This document shows positions 58,380 to 59,866 of a stretch of DNA of 64,000 bases, in pieces. How positions within the stretch are numbered: the first letter of the stretch is position 1; each line of letters starts with the position of its first letter. The stretch is from contig NZ_CP137642.1 of NCBI RefSeq assembly GCF_033472595.1, positions 1,364,001 to 1,428,000 of the forward strand. Reading direction: 5' to 3'. This stretch comes from Methanoculleus receptaculi (GTDB lineage: Archaea; Halobacteriota; Methanomicrobia; Methanomicrobiales; Methanoculleaceae). The notes beneath the pieces are model-generated. The model was not told the DNA's origin and did no database searches. It worked only from the letters and a program-made list of their open reading frames with translations. The translations under genes were made by a program, and so were the position numbers.

Positions 58380-58479
58380 TTCCAGCGTCAGGCTGGAATC
58401 TCTTCTTCTCTTGCACACGGATAACTTGCTATGTGGAGACCGTAGCCGGGCAGTGAGTTATGATAAGTCCCGGTAGCCG

Positions 58480-59190
58480 TGGCAGGGGACGAGACAGGAT
58501 TTCGGCAGGGTGTTCACATCAAGCCGTGGAGATGCTCTCCCCGGCAGTGCATCGATGGGATATCACCCCGCGGGGGTGGGGCTGACGGGGAGGGGGTGGA
58601 TCACCCCCTCCCCTCTCTCCTGCATCTCCGATTGAACGGTGTTCATAGACCACCCCCACCTCCCGGCGCGTTCCGCGCCTCCTCCCGCCCCCTGCAAGGG
58701 GGCGGGCAGTTGATTGGCGATTGGCCCGGATAGAGTGCACGGGGAGTGGAGGCAGGAACTTCGGGGGGGTGTCGGGTGAGACCGCGAAGAGACTGCCAGA
58801 TCCCCCGGCACCGTATCGATGGGATATCGCCCCCCCTGGGGGAGGGGCTGACGGGGAGGGGGTGGAACATCCCCCTCCCCTGTCTCATGCGTCTCCGATT
58901 GAACGGTGTTCATAGACCACCCCCACCTCCCGGCCGCTCACGCGGCCTCCGCCCGCCCCCTGCAAGGGGCGGGCGAGTGTTTGGCGATTGGCCCGGTGGC
59001 CGTGCCATGGGACGAGACAGGATTTCGGCAGGGTGTTCACATCAAGCCGTGGAGATGCTCTTCCCCGGAGACTGTATCCATGGGGAATCGCCCCGTGGGG
59101 GTGGGGCTGACGGGGAGGGGGTGGAACATCCCCCTCCCCTGTCTCATGCGTCTCCCGTTGAACGGTGTTCGCTGGATCACCCCGCCAGGA
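58480..59190 (+). repeat. Tandem array of about 265-bp GC-rich units
   Basis: Three units start near 58480, 58735 and 59000. Each contains catcgatgggatatc-like sequence, ggggctgacggggagggggt, the complementary C-run, and gattgaacggtgttc. The first two end with cgcccgccccctgcaagggg, its complement and ttggcgattggcccgg. The runs pair as strong hairpins (for example ggggagggggtggaacatcc with its mate), and no ORF was accepted. It may be a non-autonomous element or a structured RNA. Diverged copies are at 4790, 49065, 50990 and 61310. Confidence 0.85.
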
Positions 59191-59217
59191 AAACGTCCCG
59201 GGACCTTTAACTTGCGG

Positions 59218-59362
59218 GGGTGAAGGGGGCGGAGCGGGAAGTCCCCGGTCTTCTGGCCGGGGATGAAAGTGGAGCCAAGACCTCTACATCACATCTCTGT
59301 GGTGCACGTGTTGACCATGATAGCCGGGAAGCCCCGCCCGAGAGGCGCGGGGTAGTTCACTC
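59218..59362 (+). ncRNA. Two-hairpin element with IS200/IS605-like ends
   Basis: A first hairpin pairs TCCCCGG at 59242-59248 with CCGGGGA at 59257-59263, in the context gcgggaagtccccggtcttc and ggggatgaaag. A second pairs CCCCGC near 59332 with GCGGGG, and ends in ggtagttcac. Both are like the terminal hairpins of IS200/IS605 elements and the omega-RNA regions of TnpB genes, but no tnpA or tnpB gene is near. It ends one base before the fae stop codon. It may be a non-autonomous remnant or an orphan guide-like RNA. Confidence 0.45.
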
Positions 59363-59866
59363 TCACGCAAAGGGATGCTTCGCAGTATCTTTCTGTGCGA
59401 GCACGTCCTTCATCTTCGGCTCGCCTCTTATCGCCCGGTGAATTGCGGTCTTCGTCGCCTCGTAGTTCCAGTCGTAGATCTTCTTCTTGTCCTTTGCATC
59501 CCACTCTATGAAGACCGATGCTATGATCAACAGGTTATCGGCCTCTGCCTCCGGGATGATCCCTTCAGCAACGCTGTCCACTACCGCCTTCGCGACGGCT
59601 GCCTGGGCAGGCCCGAAGATCAGGAGAGCCTGGTCTGCATTCTTGATGGTTACCTTGTTGACCATCAGCGTCGATGGTTTTGCCGGAACGTTCGGTGTGA
59701 GCACCGCAAGAAGTGGTGTGTGCCCCCGTGCAGGCGATGCGAGCGCCGTGACAAACGCCTGCTCAACGCTGCTCCCTTTCTTGCCTATGACAAGATCGAT
59801 ATGAGCAACCTCCGGGCCTTCGCCAACAAGCGCTTCTCCAATCAATGCATGTTCAAAATCAACCAT
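59363..59866 (-). CDS. fae: Formaldehyde-activating enzyme
   Basis: This 167-residue protein condenses formaldehyde with tetrahydromethanopterin. It begins FEHALIGEALVGEGPEVAHI and includes GKKGSSVEQAFVTALASPAR and LLIIASVFIEWDAKDKKKIY. A GGAGGT ribosome binding site lies a few bases upstream of the ATG. In methanogens Fae is linked to formaldehyde detoxification or to pentose synthesis with hexulose-phosphate synthase. The IS605-like element borders its 3' end. Confidence 0.93.
   Translation of the reverse strand: MVDFEHALIGEALVGEGPEVAHIDLVIGKKGSSVEQAFVTALASPARGHTPLLAVLTPNVPAKPSTLMVNKVTIKNADQALLIFGPAQAAVAKAVVDSVAEGIIPEAEADNLLIIASVFIEWDAKDKKKIYDWNYEATKTAIHRAIRGEPKMKDVLAQKDTAKHPFA

Follow-up and report, generated by a model that had tools for sequence, protein, structure and literature searches.

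A 150-nt ends-only element beside fae in Methanoculleus receptaculi, a probable derivative of a resident tnpA/tnpB IS200/IS605-family transposon

Palindrome-associated transposable elements (PATEs), a name introduced for elements of Haloquadratum walsbyi, have no terminal inverted repeats, carry palindromes near their termini, make no target duplication and are too short to encode a transposase; some of them derive from IS605-type elements through repeat-mediated deletion of the core, and terminal-only forms, among them those of ISHwa23 and HqIRS46 and forms of 52 bp, have been described (PMC3119063). A PATE-like ends-only IS605 sequence of ~271 nt, consisting of the left end (LE), the end of tnpB and the right end (RE), has been reported from Halanaerobium hydrogeniformans (PMC7290912). 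Here, we analysed a two-hairpin stretch beside fae, encoding formaldehyde-activating enzyme, in the archaeon Methanoculleus receptaculi. The stretch lies in a window of 64,000 nucleotides (C1:1364001–1428000) of the complete 1.98-Mb genome, and coordinates below refer to this window unless a genome position is indicated. It is very probably a non-autonomous, internally deleted, PATE-like ends-only derivative of a tnpA/tnpB transposon of the IS200/IS605 family resident in the same genome. The element is thus an ordinary non-autonomous derivative and represents no new kind of RNA.

Sibling copies, limits and target of the element

The two-hairpin stretch was used as a BLAST query against the complete genome, and 45 matches were obtained (best E 8.5e-41). 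Query positions 33–126 (window 59269–59362) recurred at 17 other places with 89–98% identity over 92 nt, while query positions 1–40 gave a separate set of matches, which belong to these elements at their left ends. Including that of the window, 28 left ends were fetched from the genome. CTTGC is the start in most of them, and the preceding sequence is mostly TTTAA or TTTAT, with a few cases of ATTAA or a divergent flank. Nearly all right ends terminate at GGTAGTTCAC, with unrelated sequence beyond. By comparison with these sibling copies, the element proper was assigned to 59211–59360 (150 nt, forward strand) and its TTTAA target to 59206–59210. An earlier note on the window had placed the element at 59218–59362, limits that are slightly off. 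By local re-alignment, window 59206–59276 aligned as a left end and 59269–59360 as a right end; the left-end matches include full tnpB and tnpA+tnpB elements, and some copies match over a shorter length. The features of the locus are as follows:

59206–59210, forward strand: TTTAA target, or transposon-adjacent motif (TAM), immediately left of the element, based on the 28 left ends and on the insertion of a sibling into a gene
59211–59276, forward strand: left end of the IS200/IS605 element, sharing 83–89% identity over ~71 nt with most of the other copies at their left ends
59242–59263, forward strand: imperfect palindrome of the left end, with a 9-bp stem and GGAAG just before it (DNA fold, z −2.78 versus shuffled DNA)
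59269–59276, forward strand: LE/RE junction, the 8-nt exact overlap of the LE and RE matches, GTGGAGCC, taken as the end point of the deletion
59269–59360, forward strand: right end, as found in the 17 other copies
59287–59304, forward strand: conserved omegaRNA hairpin H4, CATCACA/TGTGGTG in the window, with 7 of 7 pairs kept
59328–59358, forward strand: palindrome of the right end, in which GAA (59328–59330) can pair with TTC (59356–59358) of the right cleavage site (DNA fold)
59361–59380, forward strand: position of the guide in any omegaRNA that might be produced, TCTCACGCAAAGGGATGCTT, running antisense to the fae 3′ terminus, as predicted from the known TnpB arrangement
59363–59866, reverse strand: fae (167 aa), with its stop codon at 59363–59365, 2 nt from the end of the element

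The two-hairpin element is real, and each of its hairpins has a more stable fold than shuffled DNA (z −2.8 and −2.2; −2.16 for the right hairpin, 59331–59353). The termini, CTTGC and TTCAC, are not inverted repeats, palindromes are present near both of them, and 150 nt leaves no room for transposase coding. TTTAA is present only on the left side of the window copy.

The parent transposon was identified in the same genome. The PF07282 profile detected approximately 20 TnpB genes and the PF01797 profile three TnpA genes (genome 1458709, 1514924 and 1789129; E 2e-36), and these same ends enclose most of the TnpB genes and each of the three TnpA genes. The TnpB protein of the full copies (396 aa) matched the TnpB structures 8bf8/8h1j with E 1e-43, and includes the RuvC and zinc-ribbon regions (GIDVG, EDLN, DRDYNAA and CSNC..CPYC). 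TnpA, encoded by a 140-codon frame, matched the Y1 transposase structures 2xm3/2xqc with E 5e-23, and its alignment to 2xm3 indicated HYH with both His residues and PSY with the C-terminal Tyr. In the tnpB-only copies that were read, a scar upstream of tnpB preserves the initial and final tnpA codons. Compared with the three resident tnpA+tnpB elements, the window copy has the same LE, RE and target, but has lost both genes along with the 5′ portion of the omegaRNA. The earlier note had suspected IS200/IS605-type ends, belonging to a remnant or to a non-autonomous palindrome-associated element, and had called for a genome search for TnpB and matching ends; both were found, and the suspicion was borne out by the 27 other left ends, the 17 other right ends and the TnpB and intact TnpA genes. 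The result named in the note as a refutation, a genome free of IS605-type elements with such ends, was thus not obtained. It was also correct that the window contains neither tnpA nor tnpB, since the closest matching right ends are at genome 1457504, ~34 kb rightwards, and at 1338396, ~85 kb leftwards. Its description of the element as an orphan is, however, wrong at the genome level.

The boundaries were further examined on a full tnpB copy at genome 1282302–1283731 (~391–1820 of locus L045), which interrupts a gene that is uninterrupted in nine other Methanoculleus genomes. When the flanks of this copy were joined as TTTAA/A, an open frame continued across the joint (GDDPLYAEFKEKIGPFYW), and the closest relative (G002) has GAGTTTAAGGAG at the empty site, i.e. 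TTTAA at the joint. The flank joint, together with the empty site in relatives, indicates that this sibling inserted 3′ of TTTAA without target duplication, and this sequence comparison confirms the target, the ends and the lack of target duplication for the full sibling. The interrupted gene appears, from a CDACIRRCP motif, to encode an iron-sulfur protein. Separately, a second right-end subfamily (GGGCCTGTGGAC...GAAGCC) was observed at genome 802535 (L068) and 781618 (L071); the copy at 802535 is a tnpB-less form of 230 nt with a TTTAT target.

Internal deletion and the series of ends-only forms

In intact copies, the right end is where the tnpB coding sequence finishes and also forms the 3′ portion of the omegaRNA scaffold; the tnpB frame continues through it, ending in most copies at the TAG of GGTAG. 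The fusion of LE and RE at the 8-nt overlap indicates that tnpB was lost by short-repeat deletion. On this reading, a tnpB-bearing element, or an already deleted form, inserted 3′ of a TTTAA adjacent to the stop codon of fae, and the element-free 3′ region of fae would join as TTTAA followed directly by TCTCACGC. Short GTGGAGCC-like repeats in LE and RE mediated, by recombination or slippage, the loss of the segment between the ends, leaving both target/cleavage sites and both subterminal hairpins. With these parts retained, the window element could still be excised and mobilised as single-stranded DNA by the Y1 transposase TnpA of any of the three intact siblings, and we infer its mobilisation in trans on this basis.

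The genome contains a series of sizes, namely, ~1.3–1.7 kb, 183/177 nt, 155 nt (the window copy with its target included) and 66/67 nt. The junction of the 183-nt and 177-nt forms (genome 358970 and 924476) is at GCCCTT, while in the 66/67-nt forms (1117987 and 1130694) the left and right hairpins are merged into a single hairpin. By pattern search, 66-nt-type forms were detected in 8 of 35 Methanoculleus genomes, compared with none for the reversed pattern. One of these genomes (G045) has two identical 66-nt copies with flanks just 28–30% identical, and the presence of identical copies at unrelated sites suggests mobility of ends-only forms, with TnpA presumably acting in trans. A single-hairpin ends-only element was also observed at apparently the same place in two Methanoculleus genomes (L153 in G009 and L156 in G001), directly upstream of AGGAGG and a start codon, and is possibly retained there in a 5′ leader.

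Searching the 35 genomes for the window-type deletion gave the window copy and the 183-nt copy, and no others. Two observations weigh against this interpretation of the window copy. The exact 150-nt form is single-copy among these genomes, and the window copy thus gives no sign of its own movement; for this reason, the deletion may have arisen in place. In addition, an empty fae site with TTTAA was sought in relatives and not found, the flanks being diverged, because in this genome the element is bordered on its left by diverged repeats. To the left of the element, positions 58470–59170 contain three G+C-rich repeat units ~260 bp apart, with a hairpin of the GGGGAGGGGGTGG...CCCCCTCCCC type. 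A 126-nt probe from one of these units gave 42 matches in the genome, many of them clustered at ~260-bp steps; the matches listed are all within 0.92–1.64 Mb, a restriction that may be an artefact, as 40 of 107 candidates were scored.

Guide RNA, fae 3′ end and chance as alternatives

We then weighed other readings of the two hairpins. The earlier note had considered a solo guide RNA. On such a reading, the element would be transcribed into a short omegaRNA, chimeric between LE and RE, that serves TnpB encoded elsewhere and whose guide corresponds to the fae 3′ end; its role would be the cutting of empty sites on sister chromosomes, which would protect the insertion, or an antisense action on fae. 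A consensus omegaRNA fold was built from the right ends of 31 tnpB-bearing copies in this genome and related ones, comprising H0 (GCGGTG/CACCGC), H1, the closing stem P2 (CCUG/CAGG), H3, H4 (CAUCACA/UGUGAUG) and H5, the last of which corresponds to the right-end hairpin. The fold of the family is supported by the H3 stem (GCCAA/UUGGC), in which a C-G/A-U exchange was detected (17 C-G, 9 A-U and 5 unpaired). The right half of the window element corresponds to the 3′ part of this omegaRNA, with H4 (7 of 7 pairs) and H5 (6 of 6) complete and 6 of 7 pairs kept in H3, figures that are biased towards the fold, which was derived from the same sequences. Many TnpB genes are available in trans, and shortened omegaRNAs can be active. 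Furthermore, the sequence adjacent to the inferred guide (TCTCACGCAAAGGGATGC, antisense to the end of fae) is GTTCAC, which is not the TTTAA TAM, and the host site would therefore escape cutting.

Against these points, H0, H1 (0 of 6 pairs) and the 5′ strand of P2 (1 of 4 pairs), which nearly all of the 31 tnpB-bearing copies retain, are lost in the window copy by a plain deletion, and one H3 pair is broken by a substitution. With the 5′ third missing, the window copy does not have a complete scaffold up to its right end. A genome search for a second TAM plus guide site gave just the element's own site (2 TAM mismatches) and chance-level sites with 3 mismatches, and the element is not conserved at the fae loci of relatives. 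In an Rfam scan, the element matched no family, and tRNA alone reached the gathering score. An archaeal omegaRNA paper (PMC12558985) contains no mention of solo or tnpB-less omegaRNAs under the terms searched. The suggestion of a solo guide RNA is thus weakened, the right-end part of an omegaRNA being present and the conserved 5′ domain deleted, and we consider it improbable; a working guide RNA from the window element is unlikely because of the deletion of this domain. The more specific case, in which the LE hairpin would replace the lost 5′ hairpin in a chimeric guide RNA, used in trans by the resident TnpB proteins and carrying a guide that matches the end of fae, is very improbable.

A separate observation on the omegaRNA was made at three right ends (L119, L138 and L127, in G006 and G012), where an in-frame tnpB insert of ~51 nt just before GTGGAG carries two extra hairpins. 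These hairpins are maintained through paired changes between genomes (GGGAAAT/ATTTCCC versus GGCAAAT/ATTTGCC), suggesting that the omegaRNA is under selection within the coding sequence.

The hairpins could also serve as a transcription terminator or as an mRNA-stabilizing 3′ end for fae. As the earlier note stated, the element borders the fae stop codon; it starts 2 nt past this codon in the direction of the gene, and a read-through transcript would include both hairpins. However, no run of at least four T was detected on the fae strand inside the element, the first such run being 172 nt into the stretch examined. Moreover, when the 3′ ends of fae were compared, the element was absent at 13 of 13 fae loci of relatives, and the same ends occur in many unrelated contexts. 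The fae protein itself is 84–95% identical to those of Methanoculleus relatives, and the best-matching relative locus is collinear up to 59361. A conserved role in fae expression is not supported, given the 13 loci without the element and the lack of a T-run on the fae strand. The action in fae termination that had been suggested earlier therefore finds no backing, and a 3′-end role is quite improbable. The window element is most likely a passenger with no fae role.

Although the neighbourhood at 58470–59170 is rich in other G+C-rich hairpin repeats, a chance pair of such hairpins in a repeat-rich intergenic region has a negligible probability, and is refuted by the recurrence of both ends in the genome, the right end at 17 other places (89–98% identity) and the left end at 27.

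Comparison with described elements and significance

Apart from its own mobility and its own lack of target duplication, the window element has each defining feature of a PATE that was tested. The 66-nt forms of Methanoculleus parallel the 52-bp terminal-only forms of Haloquadratum. Compared with the Haloquadratum PATEs, however, the element belongs to a different archaeal lineage, retains 92 nt of RE beyond the palindrome, and was deleted via the GTGGAGCC repeat and not via the palindrome itself. Like the window copy, the sequence of H. hydrogeniformans has an LE hairpin fused to the terminal portion of tnpB and a complete RE, lacks tnpA and is present in one copy; in contrast, it is from a bacterium and is ~271 nt in length against 150 nt, and the ends are unrelated.

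The REP/REPIN sequences, which are moved by RAYT (TnpA-REP) transposases, resemble the 66-nt forms in that each is one short palindrome with a conserved tetranucleotide at its base, whereas the ends in Methanoculleus belong to a tnpA/tnpB element. Our literature search found nothing on Methanoculleus insertion sequences with tnpB. Exact ends, a TTTAA/TTTAT target and a partly covarying omegaRNA fold are now given for the IS200/IS605 family of this genus. Within one complete genome and across the genus, the family forms a series from tnpA+tnpB through tnpB-only and ends-only forms to a single 66-nt hairpin, and this graded series is well suited to the question of whether TnpB can still use shortened omegaRNAs supplied in trans.
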